The translations under genes and the position numbers were made by a program. Below, piece after piece: positions 1,925 to 29,856 of a stretch of 31,329 nt of DNA. The notes beneath the pieces are model-generated. The model saw only the letters and a list, made by a program, of their open reading frames with translations, was not told where the DNA came from and ran no database searches. Origin of the DNA: a virus; the IMG/VR virus record IMGVR_UViG_3300023179_000342, positions 1 to 31,329 of that record; one strand, written 5' to 3'. Numbering within the stretch: position 1 is the first letter of the stretch; every line of letters begins with the position of its first letter.

Positions 1925-2142
1925 TTGTCGGCCTTTCGATCAAGTTTGTCAAAAATTTGCTTGCAGATTTCTTTTAGCTCATCAACATCCCTGCGGTAAT
2001 CGTCCTTTGCTACGTAACGCTGCGGAAAATCCTCTAGTCTATCTTCTAACCTGTTAAGACTTTTGGTGATGTTGTTCAGTACCCAGCCTGCCAAAAAACC
2101 AGCACAGGTCACAACGATATTAAATACTTGTTGATTGTCCAT
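1921..2142 (-). CDS. membrane-anchored coiled-coil protein of the lysis cassette
   Basis: A 73-residue protein with one N-terminal hydrophobic segment (VFNIVVTCAGFLAGWVL) followed by a charged helical stretch (LNRLEDRLEDFPQRYVAKDD, then DELKEICKQIFDKLDRKADK). Proteins with this plan (FPQRYVAKDDYRRD-type centre and DKLDRKADK-type end) are widespread in phage lysis regions without a settled function. An N-terminal anchor plus a coiled coil would also suit an inner-membrane spanin-like protein, but it is short and no partner outer-membrane lipoprotein gene is nested in or beside it. It sits between the ejection protein and the holin, overlapping both (TAATG at 2142; ATGA at 1921). Confidence 0.65.
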   Translation of the reverse strand: MDNQQVFNIVVTCAGFLAGWVLNNITKSLNRLEDRLEDFPQRYVAKDDYRRDVDELKEICKQIFDKLDRKADK

Positions 2143-4520
2143 TACATTTCACTAAGTTTGTTTTTGCCGGTTTGTTTTGTGCCTGCACCAAGCTCCAATG
2201 CTTTGCGTGTTTCAGCTTCTGCGGCACGTCTTGCTCTCATTTCCATTACAGATGTTCCAAGTTGCAAGCCAGGCACGGCTACGTTCAAACCTTTTTCAAT
2301 ACCAGCTTGAGCCAAACCACCAGCTTTTTCAGCCAATGCACCTACCAAAGTGTTGCTGTTGTTTACAAACGCACCACGGGGCTGCGCTTGGGTGTAACGA
2401 GCCACGTTACCTAGTGTCTTAAGTTGTGAGGCGGTTTCAGGGTTAAAAATCTCTTGCACGTTTTTAACGTCATCCAAACGCTTCAATGCTGTGTTGTATC
2501 CCTTTTGGGTAAAGTTGCCTTGTCCATCAACAATGCCTGCCTTGTCTGTAAGCCAATTGATAGTTCCTGCAGCCATGTGTTGATGTGCAGGCGAATCTTT
2601 GCCAAGATTATTGACCATTGTTTGGATGTTCTTGTTTACACCATTGACAACAAACTTATCAATAAACTTGTCTGCGGGTACAGCGTCATCTACGGCTGCT
2701 TTATAAGCAGGGTCTTTTTTCAGTAAATCAAACCGTGCTTTAGCCAAAGTCCTAGCTTTGTCAGCCAAGGGTTTTAAGGCTGATGCGCCGCCTTGTAGTG
2801 GCAAATCTTCCAATGCCTGACGCACAATGCTTGATGCTTGCGCTGCATTCCCGTCACCGCTACGTTCTGCCTTACGGATTTCTGATGCCAAGTTGGTACG
2901 CATCGCCTCAAACTGCTCAAACGTCATTGGTTCGGTTTTAAACCGTTCAAGCTGCTTGGCAATAGATGGGGGCAAGAATTCTGTTTTAAGTTTCTTACCC
3001 AATGCGGCTTCAGCGTTTTTGGCTATGGTTGCGCCATCAACAGGAAATTGACCGCCGTTGGCATCTTCCAATGCTTTGTAAGCAGCACGAATGTCTGTGT
3101 TTTTGGTTTCGTCTAGTGCTTTATAGGCGTCAATGATGCCTTGGCTGTTTTCTATGGTCTTTGTTCCATAGACATCAGGTGCGGCTTTTTCCCGAATCAA
3201 TCCTAAATTTTCAATAAGCTGACCATTTTGTTCATTGAACCGCTGCGCCAATTCAGGGTCTTTGCCTCTGCGGTTTTGTTCATTGGACAATTTAACAATG
3301 TCGCCTGTAGCTTGACCTCTCGTAAGACGCACGGGCACAGGCAAAGAATCAGCTTCAATGTGCCGCATAAATGTGGGTACATTGGTCTTTTCTACCGGAA
3401 TTGCAGACAAGGCTTTTTGTAGTTCAGGCGTAGCAACCGACAAAGCCTGTTTGATAGTCACCTCATCAGGCACAGCGGCAGCGCCAAGACTTTTTCTTTG
3501 GGCTTCTTGTGTTCCAGCTATGGTTGCGCTAGTTGCTGGCAAAACAGTTTGTTTAGGTGGCGTTAATTGAGCTTTGTTTGCCTCAAATCGAGATTGCATT
3601 ACTTGCACTTGCTGGGGGGTCATAACTTCACCCTTGGCAGTTTTTTCAGCAATAGCAGCACGGACGGATGGAGGCAGATTTACATCTACGGCCATTGCTT
3701 TTTGCATTTCCAATGGATTTGCCAAATTACCTTTTAATGCATTCGTTGTTTGAATAGCTGGTTTTTTTACAAAAGGCAAAGCCATAGTCAAAGCATTAAA
3801 GCCTTGCTCAATGTCAGTTGGACTAATTCCTGTTTTTTCGCTTGCAAACTCTGCGCCTTTTTTGATTGCGCCACCTATGAACTCCATTGCTTGTGATGGC
3901 AACGATTCTTTATAAGCCTGTGTTTCTGCCAAACCGGTTAAACGACCAATTGGGTTGGCAATAGCACCAGCAAGTTTTTGAGATGATTCTGTGGCTTCTT
4001 TGTCTGTTAATCCAAAAGCGCGTCCTGCCCAATATCCACCAGTTCCAGCTATTGCCGATGGCAAATTGGCAACAACGTCTGCGGCAGATGCTAAAAATGC
4101 AGGGCCAGTTGTTTTGGCTTTTTCTTCATTTTGGAAAAATTTTTCTTTTAGCTTTTGAACTTCTGACTTTTCTTTAACAGATTCTGTAGGCGCTTCAGCT
4201 ATGGCTTGACCTGTCAAAGCCTTTTCCCACATATCTGCCGTGCTAAATGCAAGTGCGGCAGGAGCAGCAGGAGCAGGAGCAGCCGTTGGTGCGTTTTTAG
4301 ACTTAGCTGAAATCTCTCTTAACAAAGCATTGACATCGCCTTGCAAACGTGCTTTTTGCTGTGGGTCTGTGGTTTTGCTTAGTGCGTCTTGGGCTTTTCT
4401 TAGCTCGCCCTGAATGACCTGCAAAGCCTCGGTGTCACGCTCGGCTTGCACGTTCTTTGGAACTTGCGTTCCTACAGATTTGCCTGTAAGGGCTTGCTCC
4501 CAAAGATCAGCGGTTGCCAT
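2142..4520 (-). CDS. large ejection (internal virion) protein, gp16-like by position
   Basis: A 792-residue alanine/lysine/glutamine-rich, largely helical protein. It is the third and largest of three consecutive genes in the same order as the P22 ejection proteins gp7-gp20-gp16, so it probably leaves the capsid with the genome and helps DNA cross the host envelope. A glycine/alanine-rich segment near residues 140-170 (FLASAADVVANLPSAIAGTG) could insert in membrane. The N-terminus holds a duplicated motif: TADLWEQALTG (3-13) and TADMWEKALTG (94-104), separated by an Ala/Pro-rich linker (about 79-90). The start overlaps the upstream stop (TAATG at 4520). P22 gp16 is about 609 residues, so this one is longer. 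Sequence identity to gp16 was not established. Confidence 0.65.
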   Translation of the reverse strand: MATADLWEQALTGKSVGTQVPKNVQAERDTEALQVIQGELRKAQDALSKTTDPQQKARLQGDVNALLREISAKSKNAPTAAPAPAAPAALAFSTADMWEKALTGQAIAEAPTESVKEKSEVQKLKEKFFQNEEKAKTTGPAFLASAADVVANLPSAIAGTGGYWAGRAFGLTDKEATESSQKLAGAIANPIGRLTGLAETQAYKESLPSQAMEFIGGAIKKGAEFASEKTGISPTDIEQGFNALTMALPFVKKPAIQTTNALKGNLANPLEMQKAMAVDVNLPPSVRAAIAEKTAKGEVMTPQQVQVMQSRFEANKAQLTPPKQTVLPATSATIAGTQEAQRKSLGAAAVPDEVTIKQALSVATPELQKALSAIPVEKTNVPTFMRHIEADSLPVPVRLTRGQATGDIVKLSNEQNRRGKDPELAQRFNEQNGQLIENLGLIREKAAPDVYGTKTIENSQGIIDAYKALDETKNTDIRAAYKALEDANGGQFPVDGATIAKNAEAALGKKLKTEFLPPSIAKQLERFKTEPMTFEQFEAMRTNLASEIRKAERSGDGNAAQASSIVRQALEDLPLQGGASALKPLADKARTLAKARFDLLKKDPAYKAAVDDAVPADKFIDKFVVNGVNKNIQTMVNNLGKDSPAHQHMAAGTINWLTDKAGIVDGQGNFTQKGYNTALKRLDDVKNVQEIFNPETASQLKTLGNVARYTQAQPRGAFVNNSNTLVGALAEKAGGLAQAGIEKGLNVAVPGLQLGTSVMEMRARRAAEAETRKALELGAGTKQTGKNKLSEM

Positions 4521-6025
4521 TACCGTATCACTCCAAGCTGTCTTGCCAATCTAATTTTGGCAAGCATATCTTCTTTTTCTTTTGGCGACATGGCTTGTGC
4601 AGCTTTTGCGACTTCTTCAGCAGTCATATCTTGGAAAATGCGCGGATCGGCAATTTGATTAAATTGCAGTTGTTTTTGGGCATATTGAGCCGCATCATTT
4701 TGTGCAGGCGTTAAAAAGTTTGCTCTTGCTAATTTCATGTTTTCTATGCCAATCATTTGATTAGCAATAGCAAGAATAGCTTTTTCGTTCAGTTTCTTGT
4801 TTGGTGTCGCAACTTCAGCCAATGCCCTTGCAGCATCTGTGTTGCCGCCAGCAAGAGCCAACAATGCAGAATTTTTAGCCAATTCTTCTGTATTAACTTT
4901 TTCTTGCTCATATGCAGGAATGCCAATAGCGTTAAGGATTCCTGCTGCCAATTCTTTGCGCTGACCGCCTACGCCTGTAAAGGATTCGGGTGCAAATTTT
5001 TTAATGTTTTGGAAAATGGCAATTCTTGGTTGTGCTTCTGCAGCATCTTTGACCGTTGTTTTAAAGTCTTCAGAAATAGAAGCACCACCTGCACCAAGCA
5101 AACTTGTTTGTGCAGGGCCAAGACCCGTAACCATAGGCTGATTACCACGTTGCGACATAGGGCCAACCAATTGAGTTTGACCAGTTGGGGTAACAATTTG
5201 TTGAGTTGGCGGTATTTGTGTTTCAAATGCAGTACCAGGCAAAATCTGACCTGGCAAATAAGGCCCAAATTGCCCTGTTTGTACAGTAGCACCGCCTGCG
5301 CCTGTGTTGATTCCTATACCTGTCGGCTGCATTGCAGACAAACGTGAGCCTTGATCTAAAGTTGTAAGCAGCTTGTCTTTTAGAAATTGTCTTAAACCTG
5401 CGGGGTTTTTTGCTTCTGCAAGGTAAGGAGCAATCAATTCTTTGGCACGTTCTTTAGGTATGCCCAATGCTCTAGCTTGTTCATCAGCATAGCTTAGAAG
5501 TTTTTTTTCAAGCGCTTCAGGTGCTATGGCTTCAGGAGTTTGCTCTGAAGCAATGATTAAAGGATTGTTTATCAGGGACGTTAGCCTGCTTGCAATGCCT
5601 AAAACTTGCTTGTTTGCAAAGTCTTGTTCTGCGGATCGCGTTCCGATAGCGCTCGTTTTAAATGTTTCCTGTGCACCAAAAGAGCCTGCCATGTCTTTTA
5701 GGTAGCTCAATCCCATTAAAGGCGCAACTTCGCTTGTAATTTTGGCTGCTTTTACAGGGTCATATTCGCCATTGGTTGTGTAAAGACTAGGATTAGCCAT
5801 CACAGCTTGCATATTGCGGCGTTCTTTGTCTTTTTGTTCTTCAACGGACAAAGCAATTTGTCCCGTCCTAGCGGCTTGTTGTTGCTGCTGCAGAGCCAAA
5901 GGATTAGTTTGCTCGGCTTGTTGGTAAGCCTGTGCACCACGTACAACATTTATCATGTCGCCAAGGCTCATGCCTTGTATAGGACGTATTTGTGTGCCTA
6001 TGGGTTGGATGTTGAAATCAGCCAT
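4520..6025 (-). CDS. ejection (internal virion) protein, gp20-like by position
   Basis: A 501-residue Gln/Ala-rich, predominantly helical protein with low-complexity stretches (LALQQQQQAARTGQIALS, residues 43-60) and a Gly/Thr/Pro-rich middle (about 230-300). No enzymatic motif is seen. It lies between the gp7-like gene (8-nt overlap at its start) and the large ejection protein (TAATG overlap at its end), matching the order of P22 genes 7-20-16; P22 gp20 is 471 residues. The likely role is an internal virion protein delivered during infection. The call is based on size, composition and gene order. Confidence 0.65.
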   Translation of the reverse strand: MADFNIQPIGTQIRPIQGMSLGDMINVVRGAQAYQQAEQTNPLALQQQQQAARTGQIALSVEEQKDKERRNMQAVMANPSLYTTNGEYDPVKAAKITSEVAPLMGLSYLKDMAGSFGAQETFKTSAIGTRSAEQDFANKQVLGIASRLTSLINNPLIIASEQTPEAIAPEALEKKLLSYADEQARALGIPKERAKELIAPYLAEAKNPAGLRQFLKDKLLTTLDQGSRLSAMQPTGIGINTGAGGATVQTGQFGPYLPGQILPGTAFETQIPPTQQIVTPTGQTQLVGPMSQRGNQPMVTGLGPAQTSLLGAGGASISEDFKTTVKDAAEAQPRIAIFQNIKKFAPESFTGVGGQRKELAAGILNAIGIPAYEQEKVNTEELAKNSALLALAGGNTDAARALAEVATPNKKLNEKAILAIANQMIGIENMKLARANFLTPAQNDAAQYAQKQLQFNQIADPRIFQDMTAEEVAKAAQAMSPKEKEDMLAKIRLARQLGVIR

Positions 6026-8938: not shown

Positions 8939-9492
8939 TACGTTTTCCTTCTTATCAAGGACTTAACAGTTGCTATTTTTGCGTTAATTTTTTCGGCAAT
9001 TTTTGACATAGTGACGCCATTTTTACGCAAAGACAGGATTTCATCAATCTGCTCATCAGTAAAGACTGAACGATGATGACTGCCGCCAGTTTTATGCTTG
9101 ACCCTGCCTTTTTCATGCATATCAAAATTGTTTTCATGCAAATTAGCTACACGCAAATGAGCAGGATTACAACAAACACGATTGTCGCAAAGGTGCATCA
9201 AAAAACCTCGGGCTTTTTTATTGGTAGGCGCTCTAAGCTCAATCATGTTTGGGTTTGCTAAATTAAAGATAACCCGATGGGCGTAATAGCCTTTGTCATT
9301 AATCCAAGTGCGACCATAGCCACTTTTCTCAATTGTCCCAATCCAAGGCCAGCACTCGTCAGGATTTTTAACATCAACTTTGCTCCATAAGACTTCAGGC
9401 GTGTTTTGGGGTCTGCCAGGTTTTTCACCAATTGTTCCAGCAGCAATTTTTGCTTTGCGGTCTGCATATTCTTTACGGTGGTCTCTTGCCAT
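8938..9492 (-). CDS. free-standing HNH homing endonuclease with C-terminal HTH
   Basis: A 184-residue protein of the HNH type found in phage homing endonucleases. The sequence LWSKVD...DECWPWIGTIEKSGYGR leads into H72, then MHLCDNRVCCNPAHLRVA (about 99-116), giving the conserved H, Cys pair and N-P-x-H. The C-terminal segment (FTDEQIDEILSLRKNG, then MSKIAEKINAKIATVKSLI) is a helix-turn-helix that would recognise the target. The frame extends upstream to 9591, but the ATG at 9492 is preceded by an AAAGGA site and gives a protein starting MARDHRKEYADRKAK, so that start is chosen. It lies between two virion genes, 46 nt after gp4's stop, as expected for a mobile endonuclease. Confidence 0.85.
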   Translation of the reverse strand: MARDHRKEYADRKAKIAAGTIGEKPGRPQNTPEVLWSKVDVKNPDECWPWIGTIEKSGYGRTWINDKGYYAHRVIFNLANPNMIELRAPTNKKARGFLMHLCDNRVCCNPAHLRVANLHENNFDMHEKGRVKHKTGGSHHRSVFTDEQIDEILSLRKNGVTMSKIAEKINAKIATVKSLIRRKT

Positions 9493-9538
9493 ATCAAATT
9501 TCCTTTCCGAAAACCTGATATTAGCGCATTTCCGTAAA

Positions 9539-10513
9539 TCATCTGAAGCCGCCGTCCATAATAAAGCCCGCATCTTTAGCGCGTCCAACAATTAGGCTTT
9601 CAGGGTATCGCGCAATCTGAGCAGGACGCATATTGGTTCGTTTGATGGTCGCTTTGCCTTGTGCGGCATAGCCGTTAATCATGGCGGCCTGAATCTGATT
9701 CACTTTGCCGAACATAGGCATCAGTCGTTCTGCAAGACACCACCGCAACGCCATGTTGTAGCCCTGTGGTAGCTGGATGATGTCGTTCAAGGTTTGGAAC
9801 TGACGAAAAATGGTTTGTGTGAACAGGTGCAGTTCACCTTGCTGCGGATTGGGATAGACATAGATTGTTCCCAACAGTTCACTTGGCTGGTAATAAATGG
9901 CTTTTGCCCAAGGGCCATTCAGTTGTTTGATGCCTATGGATTCGTATTCTTCCAAGCTCAAAATGGACAAAGGATAGTCCAAATATCCACCTGCAATGTT
10001 AGAACCGCCTTGCATGGTAGCAACGCGCACAAAGCCTGATTCAATCGTTAAGGGGCGCTCATAGTAGGCTGTAATGGTGGTGCTTGCAGCGGTTTGGCTT
10101 GGTGTGACGGTGTACGTACCACCTTCATTGACGTTGCCACCTGCGCCCGTGGTAAAGCCGACAATCCTTGTTCCTGCTGTAATGCCTGTGCCTGATAGCG
10201 TCATGCCGATATTGATGCCGCCTGCAGTAACACCGTTAGCAGGAACGGTCAAAACAGTTCCAGCAATCGAGCCGGTGAATGTCGCGCCTACCTGACCTGA
10301 TGGGCCAATCGTGTATTGGACTTGATTTTGTGTGGTTTGGAAGATGATTTCGCTGCGGTAGAAAACCATCATGTTTTCATTTGACCATTGCGCCACCATG
10401 TCGTTGAGCATATCTAGCCCATCTTGCGCTTCGTCAGCCGTTGGCACTTCACCAGCGGCAACTGCGCCAATGTCTTTCATGGCTCGAGTGATAATGTCAA
10501 TTGGCTGGGTCAT
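9539..10513 (-). CDS. P22 gp4-like head-tail adaptor with an inserted beta domain
   Basis: A 324-residue relative of P22 gp4 (166 residues), the ring that attaches under the portal and completes the head. The N-terminal helical part ([20 protein letters not shown], then [20 protein letters not shown]) and the C-terminal part (SLEEYESIG..., [39 protein letters not shown]) match the family. Between them, at about residues 75-149, lies an extra Gly/Thr-rich beta domain ([14 protein letters not shown]... to ...[16 protein letters not shown]) of a kind often grafted into phage structural proteins; it explains much of the length difference. The role of the insert is unknown, possibly surface decoration. 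Confidence 0.8.
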
Positions 10514-24198: not shown

Positions 24199-24372
24199 TT
24201 ATTTCTTCTTGGCGGTTTTGGCAGACTGTTTAAATGCCTCGGCAGTCGGTGCGCCTTTTGAACCTGGCGTTCTCATGCGTTCAGGGGTCTTGCCTGCAGC
24301 TTTTTGGCGTTCAATGCGCTCTTGCTTGGCATGGATTGAAGCGTACAAACCTGGGTCACCTGGTTTTTTCAT
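24199..24372 (-). CDS. small basic phage protein paired with the DUF6321-like gene
   Basis: A 57-residue protein: MKKPGDPGLYASIHAKQERI, then ERQKAAGKTPERMRTPGSKG and APTAEAFKQSAKTAKKK. The LYASIHAKxERI and RxPGSKGAPTAxxFKQSAKTAKK pattern recurs in small phage proteins, often beside DUF6321-like genes, as here (2-nt gap). The ATG at 24372 overlaps the HNH gene stop (ATGA). Basic and probably unstructured; unknown function. Confidence 0.7.
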   Translation of the reverse strand: MKKPGDPGLYASIHAKQERIERQKAAGKTPERMRTPGSKGAPTAEAFKQSAKTAKKK

Positions 24373-24866
24373 TTGTAAGCCCCTACAGATAAATTTAACG
24401 ATTCATCGCCTAAAAACTTCACAACATCAGCGCACATTTCATAAAACTGATCAAACGTAAAGTCCGACTTCATGCGATTGATTGCCTGACATACCAATAT
24501 CGTGTTTTCAGGCGTGTAACCAATTGCGCTATTTATACGCTCAATTGAAACCGTATCCAATCTTCCAGCATCAAGTGACATCGGACGACCACTATACGCA
24601 CAAATCTTAGCTTGGTTATTCCAACAATCAACCACATCTTGTATGGTTAATGTAAATTCTTGACCACGCTTTTGTGCGCTTTTACTAGCGTTTTGTAAAA
24701 AAACCTTTGCCCTGCCTTCAATTGTAGAATTATTTTTAACCCTAGCCTTTTGGTTACCTATTCTGCAACAGCTTTTGCACCAACTGTGATAACCATCAAC
24801 GGTTTGATTGTGCTTAAAAAACAAATCATACGATTTGCTTTCTTTGCAACGAAAGCATTTTTTCAT
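24369..24866 (-). CDS. HNH/endonuclease-VII-like nuclease with N-terminal zinc finger
   Basis: About 165 residues. The N-terminus has a four-cysteine zinc ribbon (C4, C7, C30, C33) around FRCKESKSYDLFFKHN, the arrangement seen in endonuclease VII-like phage proteins. The C-terminal half has an HNH-type core: ICAYSGRPM (88-96), DTVSIERINSAIGYTPENTI (104-123) and VCQAINRMKSDF (125-136). It would cut DNA, as a homing or junction/packaging-associated nuclease. The frame extends six codons further up, but the ATG at 24866 forms an ATGA overlap with the GroES-like gene. The same overlap occurs at its end with the next gene. Confidence 0.75.
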   Translation of the reverse strand: MKKCFRCKESKSYDLFFKHNQTVDGYHSWCKSCCRIGNQKARVKNNSTIEGRAKVFLQNASKSAQKRGQEFTLTIQDVVDCWNNQAKICAYSGRPMSLDAGRLDTVSIERINSAIGYTPENTILVCQAINRMKSDFTFDQFYEMCADVVKFLGDESLNLSVGAYK

Positions 24867-25120
24867 TCTTCCACAACGGCGCAAATGTCCGCTTCTTGAA
24901 TGATTTGATACATCTGACCATCAATCATGTGGGTGGGCCACTTTAGATAGTCGCCATTCCCATATTTGATGAAGTCACCAATTCGGGTTTCTGTCACCAA
25001 TGGGCCTACAGATACAACTGTTCCCTCATTAAAAGGCTCTTTGTTGTCCACATGGATGATTTCGGACAATGTACGCACTTGGGGGCGTACTACCACACGG
25101 TCACGCAGCGGTTTCAGCAT
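24863..25120 (-). CDS. GroES-like co-chaperonin
   Basis: An 85-residue protein with the Cpn10 fold pattern: LKPLRDRVVVRPQ at the start, a region where GroES has its mobile loop (SEIIHVDNKEPFNE, about 19-32, with an I-I-H-V in place of the I-V-L anchor), then GTVVSVGPLV, GDFIKYGNGDYLKW and EADICAVVEE. GroES has about 97 residues, so this is slightly shortened in the loop. It would cap host GroEL and help fold phage virion proteins, as T4 gp31 does. The first 20 nt overlap the preceding zinc-protein gene. Confidence 0.85.
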   Translation of the reverse strand: MLKPLRDRVVVRPQVRTLSEIIHVDNKEPFNEGTVVSVGPLVTETRIGDFIKYGNGDYLKWPTHMIDGQMYQIIQEADICAVVEE

Positions 25121-25973: not shown

Positions 25974-26000
25974 AAAAAAGCGGGGGGCGCAATACCCCCC
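25974..26000 (-). terminator. rho-independent terminator ending the replication/modification operon
   Basis: On the minus strand GGGGGG (26000-25995), a TATTGCG loop, CCCCCC (25987-25982) and then GCTTTTTT. A strong GC-only stem of 6 bp followed by six Ts. It sits 18 nt past the stop of the HNH gene at 26018 and separates the early/replication operon from the small-protein and packaging genes. Confidence 0.85.
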
Positions 26001-26017: not shown

Positions 26018-26335
26018 CTAACCACTAGGTAATGGTACATCAGCAGGCCATAACCCACGTTTACAAAGTAGAAAAACCGTTGATCTGTGGGCGTTGTTCC
26101 ACATGATTTGTCTATCTAGCTTGCTGAGATTCTTGCCTTGGTCTATTTCATAGTGGCAATTTAGGCAAAGCGCAGCCACCAAGTTATCGTCAGCCTTTAC
26201 GCCTCTGCCTTTGCCGCCACCCCAATTGCTGTGTGCCGCCTGCACCATGTGTTCCGCACCGCAATGTTGGCAGGGTAGCTCTGTCACCAGCTTAAGCAGC
26301 TTTCGGCTTCTTACGTACTGGTGCTTGGGAATCAT
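26018..26335 (-). CDS. YbcO/DUF1364-like HNH nuclease
   Basis: A 105-residue protein with PCQHCGAEHMVQAAHSNWGG (21-40), GKGRGVKADDNLVAALCLNC (41-60) and HYEIDQG. C22/C25 and C57/C60 can hold a structural zinc; H35, H61 and E63 are the HNH-type active-site candidates. This matches YbcO-like nucleases found in lambdoid phage ninR-type positions (DUF1364). It may act in recombination or host DNA handling. The ATG overlaps the methyltransferase stop by 4 nt, and a strong terminator follows. Confidence 0.75.
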   Translation of the reverse strand: MIPKHQYVRSRKLLKLVTELPCQHCGAEHMVQAAHSNWGGGKGRGVKADDNLVAALCLNCHYEIDQGKNLSKLDRQIMWNNAHRSTVFLLCKRGLWPADVPLPSG

Positions 26336-27003
26336 AAAAAACTTACTTGTTCTTGTTTTTGCGGTTCAGGCTCAAACAGTTGACCTTGGGCTACAGCTTG
26401 CTCTATGCGCCTGCAGGCAATGTCAAAGTATTTTGTCTCACGCTCTATGCCTATGAACTTTCTACCCATTTGGATAGCTGCCACGCCTGTTGTGCCGCTA
26501 CCCATAAATGGGTCAAGGATGGTTTTAGGATTTCCCGCTTGTTCAATGCACCATCGCATTACTGCGATTGGCTTTTGAGTTGGATGTTGTTTTTCGTCTT
26601 TTAATGCCAACACTCTTGGATAGTTAATCCTTCTTGACGCTTTTTGTTGATTTGTCCATGCAAGTTCAAAATCTGCTAAAGAAAAACCATCTTGCCCTTT
26701 ATCCCAAGAAAGCCATTTCATAGATGGCGGCAACCAATCAGTAAAATAATTTCCACCCCAAACAATAATTGTTTCACCAAGATGCAAAAATAAATCAAAT
26801 GTTTCTTTTTTTGGGCGTTCTTTATCCCATTCTAATTTTCCAAATTGATTCCAACCATTTTTTGCATCATGTTTGCTTTCATGGTAAGAACCTAAAATTC
26901 CATAAGGCGGGTCAGTAATCACCGCATCCACCTTGTCTAAAGTCTGCAGAATGTCCATGCAGTCACCCAAATACAAGGTTGCGTCACCAATTTGAACTTT
27001 CAT
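26332..27003 (-). CDS. DNA methyltransferase (N6-adenine/N4-cytosine type)
   Basis: A 223-residue methyltransferase. Catalytic motif IV DPPYGILG (31-38) precedes the S-adenosylmethionine motif I DPFMGSGTTGVAA (164-176), giving the beta-class order. HPTQKP (140-145) and the FIGIE (183-187) segment are typical. It would transfer a methyl group from AdoMet to an exocyclic amino group of adenine (or cytosine) at a specific site; the target cannot be read from sequence. No restriction partner is seen next to it, so it may protect the phage DNA. AT-rich codon use in the middle (26600-26900) differs from neighbouring genes. ATGA overlaps join it to both neighbours. Confidence 0.88.
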   Translation of the reverse strand: MKVQIGDATLYLGDCMDILQTLDKVDAVITDPPYGILGSYHESKHDAKNGWNQFGKLEWDKERPKKETFDLFLHLGETIIVWGGNYFTDWLPPSMKWLSWDKGQDGFSLADFELAWTNQQKASRRINYPRVLALKDEKQHPTQKPIAVMRWCIEQAGNPKTILDPFMGSGTTGVAAIQMGRKFIGIERETKYFDIACRRIEQAVAQGQLFEPEPQKQEQVSFL

Positions 27004-27326
27004 TGGTGAGATTTGTCCTGCATTCGGTTATTGGCTTGCTGAGTGCGCCAAATCTCTACGTCTAGCCTTGCTGCTTCCAATTCCCACCGCAGGGTTTCTT
27101 CCTGTTCAATTGCCGCAGCCAAGCCTTTAAGAAGCTGTTGATAACTTGGGTCGGCATAGGCTTCACGCTCTTGTGCGTTGGCGGCTTCATAGCCCATAGT
27201 CAGGGCTTCCTTCATTAGCAGGGCTTTTTTGGATTTCCTAAATTCTTCAAGGTACACGCGCTGCGCTTTGGCTGCGCCGTAGGCGGGTGCTTTGTCTCTA
27301 ATGTCTTGCGTCTTTTGCTCAATCAT
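27000..27326 (-). CDS. conserved phage coiled-coil protein
   Basis: A 108-residue helical protein: EQKTQDIRDKAPAYGAAKAQ, RVYLEEFRKSKKALLMKEAL, then EREAYADPSYQQLLKGLAAA and LRWELEAARLDVEIWRTQQA. The layout (YLEEFRKxxKALLM, AQEREAYA, LRWELEAARLxVExWRT) recurs in phage operons with recombination or replication genes, without a known role. ATGA overlaps at both ends. No enzymatic motif. Confidence 0.7.
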   Translation of the reverse strand: MIEQKTQDIRDKAPAYGAAKAQRVYLEEFRKSKKALLMKEALTMGYEAANAQEREAYADPSYQQLLKGLAAAIEQEETLRWELEAARLDVEIWRTQQANNRMQDKSHQ

Positions 27327-27607
27327 TTAATCACCCCTAATGCTCTTAAAGCCGCTTCAGGCCCGTCAACAACAGAAATTGGGCCTTGCCATGTCCCATG
27401 AAATTTAATTTGGTCTTCTGTAAGTTTTTGGCGTGATGGTGATTTGTTGCCATCTTTAACCTCCATCAAAAGGTTTACACCCTTGAACGAAACCAATAAG
27501 TCAGGTACGCCTTTGCCAACGGCAGCCAAGGATTGAACCGTAGCGCCAGCGGCACGTAGAGCCGAGACAACCTGGATATGGTTGGCATCAACCTTCGCCG
27601 CCCTCAT
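27323..27607 (-). CDS. VRR-NUC-like nuclease-fold protein
   Basis: A 94-residue protein with the PD-(D/E)XK-type core VGKGVPDLLVSFKG (30-43) and NLLMEVKDG (45-53), so D36, E49 and K51 are the candidate catalytic residues. An N-terminal helix (ANHIQVVSALRAAGATVQSL) and the tail WQGPISVVDGPEAALRALG fit small stand-alone VRR-NUC-like phage proteins. These are thought to cleave structured DNA. The ATG overlaps the preceding 94-codon frame (ATGA) and the 68-codon frame by 20 nt. Confidence 0.75.
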   Translation of the reverse strand: MRAAKVDANHIQVVSALRAAGATVQSLAAVGKGVPDLLVSFKGVNLLMEVKDGNKSPSRQKLTEDQIKFHGTWQGPISVVDGPEAALRALGVIK

Positions 27608-27794
27608 GCCTCAGCCGATTCATTCTGCTCCGCAGGTCGGCTAATGCCGATTCCCCACGAAACTTGGCTATGTCGGATGACATTTTTTGCCACCACGCTC
27701 GGGCATCGCCCATTTCCATCATACGTTTTCTGTATCTCCTCATCCATTCTCTTGCCTCGCAATCCCTCATGTGTTCTATCTGCTCTTGCGTCAC
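27588..27794 (-). CDS. small helical phage protein with GTG start
   Basis: A 68-residue protein read from GTG, with GGAG 7 nt upstream. MTQEQIEHMRDCEAREWMRR, YRKRMMEMGDARAWWQKMSS, DIAKFRGESALADLRSRMNR. The CEAREWxxRYR and RxWWQxxxxDIxxxRG...ADLRxRM pattern is familiar from small conserved phage proteins, so this frame is considered real. It overlaps the 27604-27888 frame out of phase for 190 nt and the VRR-NUC-like start by 20 nt. Function unknown. Confidence 0.65.
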   Translation of the reverse strand: MTQEQIEHMRDCEAREWMRRYRKRMMEMGDARAWWQKMSSDIAKFRGESALADLRSRMNRLRHEGGEG

Positions 27795-27888
27795 CTACCA
27801 TCTCCAATGCTTTCAATACGATTTGTGGGGAGTAATTTGTACCATCTTTGACCCGATCAAGAATGGCATGGGCTTGGTAGTAGTTCAT
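27604..27888 (-). CDS. small phage protein overlapping the 68-codon gene
   Basis: A 94-codon frame from ATG 27888 (ATGA overlap with the Mom-like gene). The first ~31 residues, MNYYQAHAILDRVKDGTNYS then PQIVLKALEMVGDA, resemble short conserved phage proteins and look genuine. The remaining ~60 residues run out of frame under the 27588-27794 gene and are low in hydrophobic residues, so they may be a by-product of open reading. The frame stays open to 27604, where its stop overlaps the nuclease start (ATGA). Either an overprinted pair or a short protein that has lost its original stop. Confidence 0.6.
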   Translation of the reverse strand: MNYYQAHAILDRVKDGTNYSPQIVLKALEMVGDARADRTHEGLRGKRMDEEIQKTYDGNGRCPSVVAKNVIRHSQVSWGIGISRPAEQNESAEA

Positions 27889-28691
27889 TTTTCGCGCTTT
27901 GGATATGGCTTTAAAAGATGTGAAATGGCCGCCAAATGATTGCGCTCAACGTATTTGCCACCACGAAAAGCAAAATATCGGCCTTTGCTGTGTTGCTTGA
28001 TTTTTTGGACATGGGGAAAATGTTTTTTTATGTTGTCTAACTGGGTGTTTCCACAAACAGCCCTGATGCTTCTAGATGTCCAAATCTTTCCATCAATCAG
28101 CCAACCATCTCTATCTAGCTTTCTGCTTTTTACATTTGGATTACCGTCACGCATAGAACCAACGTAATGAAAACCGCAGGCTTGGTAAATTGTTCCGATT
28201 TCACCCGCAGATTCATCAACCGTTGATGTAACAACTTCGTATTTTTCGGGCAACAACTTCATGCTTTGGCGAATCAGCTTACTTGCGCTATGTGGGTGCG
28301 CCCAATGAACACAAGCGCCACGGCTTAACAAAATCATCTTGCCTTCAAATCCGTACTTGCTCCAATCTGCACCCGCCAATCCTTTTTCCCGTGTAATTTT
28401 TCCAAGGTTTTCAGAGTATTCAGGGCCGTAACAAACTACGCCAGCGCAGAAGCCATTAAAAAAAATGCCGTAGGTGTGCCATACAACAGCAGGCATACAA
28501 CCAAGCCATTCGTAATCAAGAATAATTTTCTCTGCAACTTTGTAGGGAACTTCTTTGACCTCCGCTTTTTTGATGTCAACGTTAATTCCCTCCCACCAGT
28601 TGCCCAACAAATCTGAATCTAAATTTTCCTGCTTTCGCTGTTCACGAATTTGCTTTTGCCAAGAAGTTGTGTTATCCAGCAAAAAATTCAT
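27885..28691 (-). CDS. Mom-like DNA hypermodification protein (GNAT fold)
   Basis: A 268-residue protein resembling phage Mu Mom-family proteins, which convert adenine to N6-(1-acetamido)-adenine and so shield DNA from restriction. Family marks: DYEWLGCMPAVVWHTYGIFF (59-78), AGVVCYGPEY (83-92), then LLSRGACVHWAHPHSASKLI (121-140), VDESAGEIGTIYQACGFHYV (158-177) and a tail with WTSRSIRAVCG. The SASKLI and AGEIGTIYQA segments are the GNAT-like core. Mu Mom is about 230 residues; the N-terminal ~45 residues here are extra. ATGA overlaps at both ends; the upstream gene encodes a putative zinc-binding protein. Confidence 0.75.
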   Translation of the reverse strand: MNFLLDNTTSWQKQIREQRKQENLDSDLLGNWWEGINVDIKKAEVKEVPYKVAEKIILDYEWLGCMPAVVWHTYGIFFNGFCAGVVCYGPEYSENLGKITREKGLAGADWSKYGFEGKMILLSRGACVHWAHPHSASKLIRQSMKLLPEKYEVVTSTVDESAGEIGTIYQACGFHYVGSMRDGNPNVKSRKLDRDGWLIDGKIWTSRSIRAVCGNTQLDNIKKHFPHVQKIKQHSKGRYFAFRGGKYVERNHLAAISHLLKPYPKREK

Positions 28692-29107
28692 ACAACCCTC
28701 AAGGCTTCACGCCATGCCTTTTTCTGAATCACGCTTAATTTTTGGCCAGTTTCTTCACGGTTTTTGAGCTTGTGCGCCCATGCCTTTGGGTCTTTAGGCG
28801 CTTTGAATGCTTCTAAAACGTCTTTAATGGTCTTTTGAGGCGTTTTTTTATAGGGGTCTAGGGGTAGGTAGCCACTCTGCTCAATTTTGCCTTTAAACGT
28901 CTCTAATGTGCCCATCACAACTTTGCTTTTTAGCCATTCCGTGATTTTTGGCCAATCATGTGATTCTGACCATGCGTGATGGCTGCAGAGCTTCATGCCT
29001 TTGTCAACCGACCATTCCATCGGGCATTCAAACGCGCTGCAGAGCAGGTCAAATTTGTCAGGCATTTGCGCCTGTTCGTGCTTTTGTTTGGCTTCGTAGT
29101 AGCTCAT
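28688..29107 (-). CDS. putative zinc-binding protein upstream of the Mom-like gene
   Basis: A 139-residue protein not assigned to a family. The N-terminus has C23, C28, C41, H43 and H44 (LLCSAFECPMEW ... MKLCSHHAW), a spacing that can hold zinc. After that it is helical and basic (GTLETFKGKIEQSG, KAWAHKLKNREETGQKLSVI). It lies between the DUF1376 initiator and the Mom-like gene with ATGA overlaps at both ends. Two roles are possible: a replication accessory (helicase-loader position after the initiator) or, by analogy to Mu Com, a zinc-binding translational regulator of the mom-like gene. Neither is shown. Confidence 0.6.
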   Translation of the reverse strand: MSYYEAKQKHEQAQMPDKFDLLCSAFECPMEWSVDKGMKLCSHHAWSESHDWPKITEWLKSKVVMGTLETFKGKIEQSGYLPLDPYKKTPQKTIKDVLEAFKAPKDPKAWAHKLKNREETGQKLSVIQKKAWREALRVV

Positions 29108-29856
29108 GTTTGCTCCTGATGGTATGCACCTTCAACAATTCGGGGGAATTTGCTTGCCGTGAAAAGAAACTCAAAGTTGGCTTTCCAATCTTTTGATCTT
29201 CCTGTCAGAAATTTGGATTTGCCTACATAAACAAAAAACCAATCAAAAAACTCTAACCCTCTATCCCTGTCTAGCTTGTCGGCAGAAACCACATCACGCC
29301 ATCTTGCCGCCACCAAACGCTTTCGGGAATCGCTGACCACGGTTACTCGAGGAAGCATTGGCAAGCGGCTGTTGTACAGGTCAACAATTTCAGCAATTGG
29401 CGCTGATGGCGTTTTCTCGCTTGGCGAGACAACAAGAACCGTAGGTTCAGTATTTATTAGTTCTTGGTTTATGGTTATTGGTTCTTGGTTAGGTGGCGCT
29501 TCGTTTACGCCTTGTGCACGATTCGTTCTTTTTTCTTTACGTTTCGTTTCACGTTCTATAGCGATTCGTTTATTTGTTTGTGATTTAGAGTGGTACTCAA
29601 GCAACTCTTGCAAGATGCGGTCTTGAACATATTGACCATCTTTATCCAACACAAAAAACCTGCTCAACACAAACTTTACCGCCTCAATTTCAGCCTCCGT
29701 AGATGCCCAAGTCCATTCAAGGGCTTGTTCTAACGTAGGAAAAACCTCACGGTCATAGCACGAATCAATAAGAAGCGTGTACGCTCCGTGCTGCAGCATG
29801 GTCAAACGACCTGCTTTCTTGGCATAGTCGCCAAGATTTCTTTTGTAGTAATGCAA
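29104..29856 (-). CDS. DUF1376 replication initiator-like protein
   Basis: A 250-residue protein. The N-terminal 90 residues match DUF1376: YYKRNLGDYAKKAGRLTMLQ, HGAYTLLIDSCYDREVFPT, then WASTEAEIEAVKFVLSRFFV and RILQELLEYHSKS; this is a winged-helix fold of phage replisome-organiser proteins. A linker (about 105-150) has PNQEPITINQELINTEPTV encoded by near-repeats. The C-terminal part (IVDLYNSRLPMLPRVTVVSD, VGKSKFLTGRSKDWKANFEF) is the usual helical domain. It starts with TTG at 29856, with GGAG 6 nt upstream. It would bind an origin and load replication proteins. Confidence 0.8.
   Translation of the reverse strand: MHYYKRNLGDYAKKAGRLTMLQHGAYTLLIDSCYDREVFPTLEQALEWTWASTEAEIEAVKFVLSRFFVLDKDGQYVQDRILQELLEYHSKSQTNKRIAIERETKRKEKRTNRAQGVNEAPPNQEPITINQELINTEPTVLVVSPSEKTPSAPIAEIVDLYNSRLPMLPRVTVVSDSRKRLVAARWRDVVSADKLDRDRGLEFFDWFFVYVGKSKFLTGRSKDWKANFEFLFTASKFPRIVEGAYHQEQT
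29459..29490. repeat. direct repeats in the initiator linker, possible origin iterons
   Basis: The 10-mer GTTCTTGGTT occurs at 29460-29469 and 29481-29490, 21 bp apart (two helical turns), within an AT-rich stretch of the DUF1376 gene (29440-29500). The sequence between them, TATGGTTATTG, repeats part of the motif. Phages such as lambda carry origin iterons inside the initiator gene, so these may be binding sites for the protein; alternatively they only reflect the repeated NQE-type linker codons. Confidence 0.4.

Follow-up and report, generated by a model that had tools for sequence, protein, structure and literature searches.

A mom gene without com in the overlapping replication operon of a freshwater P22-like phage

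In phage Mu, the DNA-modification gene mom is overlapped from upstream by the gene for a small zinc-ligand protein, Com. A similar arrangement is found in the IMG/VR virus record IMGVR_UViG_3300023179_000342, whose 31,329 bases were analyzed over their whole length (the window). Here, a gene for a 268-residue Mom-like protein directly follows, and overlaps, a gene for a 139-residue protein with potential zinc ligands, and a methyltransferase and two nuclease-like genes belong to the same operon. Does the locus encode a com/mom regulatory pair, is it a multi-gene protection system, or has mom entered the operon on its own? Our analysis makes it very probable that the Mom enzyme is encoded by a single-gene, translation-coupled cassette that is independent of Com and resides within the replication operon of a P22-like phage. 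The observations behind this view concern the family and fold of the protein, its active-site residues, and the purifying selection on it, as well as the order of the genes, the absence of Com, and presence or absence in relatives.

The 268-residue protein and the Mom family

The open reading frame at 27885-28691 was confirmed, together with the segments SASKLI (residues 135-140) and AGEIGTIYQA (residues 162-171) that had suggested a Mom protein in the original prediction. Its product matches the Mom family PF25680 with a score of 63.8 bits (cut-off 27.1; E = 2.2e-17), and its PHROG match is phrog_1384, "Mom-like DNA modification protein" (E = 1.6e-16). For structure prediction, 18 aligned sequences from the protein's own lineage were used, giving a model with a predicted local distance difference test score (pLDDT) of 74.5 and a predicted template modeling score (pTM) of 0.71. 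When this model was compared to the PDB using Foldseek, the top match was the crystal structure of Mu Mom (8bv8_A, S124A; E = 8e-10), followed by unrelated proteins of the same GNAT fold at 5e-4. A profile search of PDB sequences likewise recovered Mu Mom (E = 7e-6). The Mom fold expected from the original identification was thus found.

Residues R124, D159, and Y169 align with R111, D149, and Y159 of Mu Mom, which presumably take part in catalysis. S137 corresponds to Mu S124, which is changed in the crystallized "inactive mutant" (title of PDB entry 8bv8). Both S137 and Y169 are invariant in the lineage (18/18 sequences), and a DE-x2-G-x2-G-x2-YQA block is conserved in the 268-residue protein. 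Comparison of mom with its relative in locus L009 gave rates of nonsynonymous (dN) and synonymous (dS) substitution of 0.052 and 0.954, respectively; because the ratio is so low (dN/dS ~0.05, purifying selection), mom is maintained by selection. Judged by its family hidden Markov model (HMM) match, modeled fold, and active-site residues, the 268-residue protein is a true Mom-family protein.

Identity to Mu Mom amounts to 22% (50 of 227 aligned residues), and proteins of the wider GNAT superfamily have diverse functions. Both facts would fit a protein whose sequence has drifted from Mu Mom and which now modifies another group, another base, or a substrate other than phage DNA adenine. We nevertheless regard such a change as unlikely: the catalytic S, R, D, and Y and the YQA-containing block are conserved, mom sits among phage DNA replication genes, and Mu Mom is by far the top PDB fold match. 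As a GNAT-fold transferase, Mom is predicted to attach a carbamoylmethyl-type group to the N6 position of adenines in DNA, and the modified adenines would shield phage DNA from host restriction enzymes.

The 139-residue protein upstream of mom

The original prediction proposed a Com-like role for the 139-residue protein. As an activator that binds RNA, it would open the structured start of mom, and the two genes would form a com/mom regulatory pair. The gene does overlap mom, and its product has four conserved potential zinc ligands in the motif C-x4-C-x3-W-x8-C-x2-H. All 17 relatives compared share C23, C28, C41, and H44, together with W32 and D35, but H43, which had been named as an alternative ligand, is not conserved. 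The zinc gene also directly precedes mom in a few other mom loci (L009, L011, L022, L024, and L058). However, while Mu Com, used as a positive control, matches the Com family PF10122 at E = 2.7e-9, the 139-residue protein has no match in Pfam, PF10122 included, even at E <= 10. It has none in NCBIfam either, and its hhalign probability with Com is 0.2%. With a zinc HMM comparison against Mu Com negative as well, homology to Com was rejected. The zinc module of Com is formed by four cysteines (CCCC; PMC6483171) instead of the C-x4-C and C-x2-H found here.

Gene neighborhoods speak against a regulatory pair, too. Relatives of the zinc module were the best 80 of 277 loci, and adjacency was counted on non-redundant loci recruited via the zinc protein itself. 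The zinc gene was directly followed by mom in 3 of 76 relatives (73/76 had no mom there) and directly preceded by an O-like replication gene in 70 of 72. Since homologs of the 139-residue protein thus occur mostly without mom and next to replication genes, the Com-like role is unsupported. Seen from the other side, just a handful of the 43 mom loci with at least 600 bp of upstream sequence have the zinc gene, and the genes upstream of mom in the remaining loci are of many unrelated kinds. None of 45 mom contigs, many of them fragmentary, gave a PF10122 score above the cut-off. Five weak hits below threshold (<=13.5 bits) came from the window and the 44 other mom contigs, and unrelated control genomes yielded similar ones.

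RNA folding over the mom start revealed no sequestering structure, and hence not the hidden ribosome site that a Com-like mechanism had led one to look for: folding z-scores (0.08, 0.72, and 0.27) were no better than those of shuffled sequence. Identity between mom loci is 0.31 (near background) in the 60 nt upstream of the gene, versus 0.76 in its first 60 nt. The overlap with the upstream gene is 4 nt (ATGA), compared to 80 nt for com/mom in Mu. None of the tests applied supports a Com-like role of the 139-residue protein, and we give almost no credence to a com/mom pair at this locus.

A different role is suggested by the C-terminal 37 residues, which are common to P-like helicase-loader proteins (hhalign 98.5%, E = 1.8e-15). 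Proteins sharing this tail resemble the P-like loaders of PHROG 109 (E ~4e-4 to 1e-2) and, in related phages, are encoded close to the initiator. The tail recurs in second replication genes that otherwise differ and may bind a common partner, e.g., the host helicase. Likeness to P is confined to the tail, and no P family HMM matched the 139-residue protein. A search of the PDB yielded no fold match (the zinc core is well predicted, but global pTM is 0.43), and tblastn against known phages gave nothing at E <= 0.01. When bacterial genomes were scanned with the alignment of the 139-residue protein, the sole match was a Comamonas P-like protein having the tail. The collection scan with relatives of the 139-residue protein used two smaller alignments, the nine-sequence one being too diverse. 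The same DPKAWA...REAL tail was seen in P-like proteins of L083 (4283-4741; Comamonas testosteroni), L007, L078, and L080-L082.

The most economical reading, from position and tail, is that the 139-residue protein would be a replication-module protein in the position of lambda P, with a zinc-type module replacing the usual N-terminal domain. As in the lambda O/P pair (PHROG 345/109), an O-like gene is directly followed by a P-tailed gene; the difference from lambda is the zinc-type module where the N-terminal domain of a P-like protein would be.

Operon structure and relatives without mom

The operon comprises eight genes reading in one direction, from 29856 down to 26018: the O-like initiator, the 139-residue zinc/P-tail gene, mom, three small genes (p94a, p94b, and p108), the methyltransferase, and the HNH gene, followed by a terminator (Table 1). 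All seven junctions are identical 4-nt ATGA overlaps.

Table 1. Features of the mom-containing replication operon, and one gene outside it.
Feature	Position	Strand	Evidence
O-like/primosomal replication initiation protein (DUF1376), first gene of block	29104-29856	-	PF07120 E = 4.5e-19; phrog_3992 primosomal protein E = 4e-31; phrog_345 O-like E = 1e-19
139-residue putative replication-module protein, N-terminal zinc-type module and C-terminal 37-residue P-like tail	28688-29107	-	Synteny; hhalign of tail
GAGGG, Shine-Dalgarno-like site of mom, within last codons of 139-residue gene	28696-28700	-	Sequence
mom, 268-residue Mom-family GNAT-fold DNA-modification enzyme; putative active site R124, S137, D159, Y169	27885-28691	-	HMM, fold, residue mapping
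p94a, 94-residue backbone protein, function not assigned; adjoins 139-residue gene in mom-less relatives	27604-27888	-	Synteny in L001 and L002
p94b, 94-residue probable PD-(D/E)XK (Hjc/VRR-NUC-like) nuclease, backbone	27323-27607	-	phrog_93 E = 8e-8; phrog_5702 E = 8e-4; 97% identical in mom-less L002
p108, 108-residue backbone protein, function not assigned	27000-27326	-	98% identical in mom-less L002
N6/N4-type DNA methyltransferase, 223 residues, DPPYG and FMGSGTT motifs; separate single-gene insert	26332-27003	-	PF01555 E = 6.6e-23; phrog_67 E = 1.5e-53; missing from L002 at clean ATGA seam
HNH endonuclease (DUF968/phrog_131), backbone	26018-26335	-	phrog_131 E = 2.7e-22; 99% identical in mom-less L002
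Strong intrinsic terminator-like hairpin closing block	25982-26000	-	GGGGGG-TATTG-CGCCCCCC then GCTTTTTTGA
Endonuclease VII-like protein, outside replication operon	24369-24884	-	phrog_1035 E = 4e-28

The related locus L002 has the same gene order (79% protein identity for p94a). Exactly two of the window's genes are absent from its operon, namely mom and the methyltransferase, with a clean ATGA seam in place of each. The sequence of L002 crosses the seam as ...AAAGCATGAACTACTACC... at the place of mom and as ...CACCAATGATTCCCAAGC... at the place of the methyltransferase. Because it runs straight across both seams, the two genes are separate single-gene inserts. A different methylase gene, called from its SPPYGD motif alone, lies upstream of the L002 initiator. 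The nuclease genes are also present in L001, again without mom. Since the nuclease-fold and small genes keep the same order in mom-less phages, they belong to the operon backbone and are not partners of mom.

This comparison argues against a dedicated modification-restriction system, in which the modifications made by Mom and the methyltransferase would protect the phage DNA and the two nucleases would attack host or competitor DNA that lacks them, an idea put forward for the Mom-nuclease fusions of jumbo phages. The occurrence of such fusions is a precedent (PMC7824862), and the co-directional operon does include PD-(D/E)XK-like and HNH genes. A distinct protection operon with a methyltransferase and two nuclease-fold proteins had indeed been suggested for the interval 26332-29107. 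The methyltransferase is real and, by its PF01555 HMM match and the motifs DPPY and (F/D)xGSGTT in the translation, of the N6/N4 family. As for the nucleases, the PD-(D/E)XK call for p94b is weak (its PHROG endonuclease match is accompanied by a Pfam match below threshold), and the HNH gene lies outside that interval. However, both nuclease genes are nearly identical in L002, whose operon has neither mom nor the methyltransferase, and the remaining genes of the supposed system likewise occur in mom-less L001 and L002. Relatives of the methyltransferase (at least 50% identity) are found in seven zinc-gene loci, none of them near mom (0/7), and this methyltransferase is present in no other mom locus among the DNA examined. 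A dedicated system is, in our view, highly improbable. A PADLOC search returned nothing beyond generic methyltransferase matches.

The place behind the zinc gene is occupied by different genes in different phages. Most of the 83 genes found directly behind it are backbone genes or HNH endonucleases; five are mom, five are C5-cytosine methyltransferases, and two are N4/N6 methyltransferases. Examples are a PF00145 gene in L145 (1631-3001; E = 1e-55) and a PF01555 gene in L151 (215-1162; E = 1e-52). The figure of 5/83 for mom is biased upward, because most of the five were first found via mom, and the unbiased figure is the 3/76 given above. From these gene contents, the slot looks like an exchange place for DNA-modification genes. 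A bolder version, which we put forward tentatively and consider rather doubtful, is that the seam exchanges mom and C5-cytosine and N4/N6 methyltransferases singly at ATGA overlaps, and that mom, once there, would be expressed early and in a replication-coupled manner, free of the Com, Dam, and OxyR control that the toxicity of Mom would seem to demand, and would modify DNA during replication.

Two further observations concern gene movement. In L001, a PAPS-reductase-like protein (8982-9722; PF01507 E = 7e-4, below cut-off) is encoded between the matches of window positions 27323-27607 and 27000-27326, and its gene is apparently another swapped single gene. In L005, a distant mom (2909-3679; ~30% identity) directly follows a ParB-like gene, while a zinc-type gene of the family described here lies ~2.5 kb ahead of it, which suggests that related genomes also differ in where mom has moved within them.

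The source of the window is a freshwater P22-like phage. P22-type structural genes for portal, scaffold, major head, ejection, and head closure proteins are present, and the nearest relatives of the portal are from uncultured spring-water phages, with Xanthomonas and Rhodoferax phages at lower identity. Two large proteins of 792 and 501 residues (2142-6025, minus strand) without a PHROG match at E <= 1e-4 adjoin the DNA-ejection protein and are possible divergent ejection proteins. GATC, the single site compared, occurs 47 times in positions 1-31329, versus ~120 expected from base composition, a ~2.5-fold depletion.

Expression of mom and comparison with other phages

Because all seven junctions of the operon are 4-nt ATGA overlaps, translational coupling is the most likely mode of expression for mom. 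Mom would be translated through ordinary termination-reinitiation from whichever gene precedes it, aided by its own GAGGG site and without Com, and would be made together with the replication proteins. Several points weigh against this view of a Com-independent cassette. Mu Mom is toxic when mis-expressed, either prematurely or in excess, and is tightly controlled (PMC4461284); therefore, an explanation is called for as to how mom can reside in an operon that is apparently early and not under tight control. The mom start-site region is no more open than its neighbors (unpaired probability 0.30). The Mom model is of moderate confidence, as its pLDDT indicates, with TM-scores to Mu Mom of 0.53-0.63 (8bv8_A: 0.53/0.63). 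Finally, the P-like link of the upstream gene rests on the 37-residue tail and the weak PHROG matches, and most P-like proteins compared were found through the tail itself.

Compared to Mu, the protein described here is a phage-encoded member of the same family with the same fold and putative catalytic residues. It differs in sequence, in lacking com, in the length of the upstream overlap, and in belonging to a replication operon, whereas Mu mom is a late gene. The Mu com/mom pair (PF10122 and PF25680) likewise has a small zinc-ligand protein gene just upstream of, and overlapping, mom; however, the 139-residue protein belongs to a non-Com family, has other ligands, is more than twice as long as Com, and is tied to replication genes, and no inhibitory hairpin was found. 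In jumbo phages, Mom is also associated with nuclease folds, by fusion, while the nucleases here are separate backbone genes present in mom-less relatives.

Genes for mom have been annotated in phages other than Mu, including Bacillus phage Riggi, Bacillus podoviruses Thornton and SerPounce, Psychrobacter phage Y8A, and mycobacteriophages (PMC3853051, PMC9965433, PMC10434257). In Riggi, mom occurs without a recognized com (PMC3853051), and in the Bacillus podoviruses it is a single inserted gene (PMC9965433). A mom without a recognized com has thus already been reported; the position of the insert inside a tightly overlapped replication operon is unusual.

The analysis corrects a tempting Com/mom reading of the locus and documents a widespread environmental lineage of phage Mom proteins, represented by more than 40 contigs at 58-92% identity, in which no Com was found. 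Two close relatives with operons distinguished by precisely two genes, mom and a methyltransferase, offer a clean natural comparison of the role of each gene. The analysis also raises the question of what allows phages to keep a toxic modification enzyme among their replication genes when they do without Mu's elaborate control.

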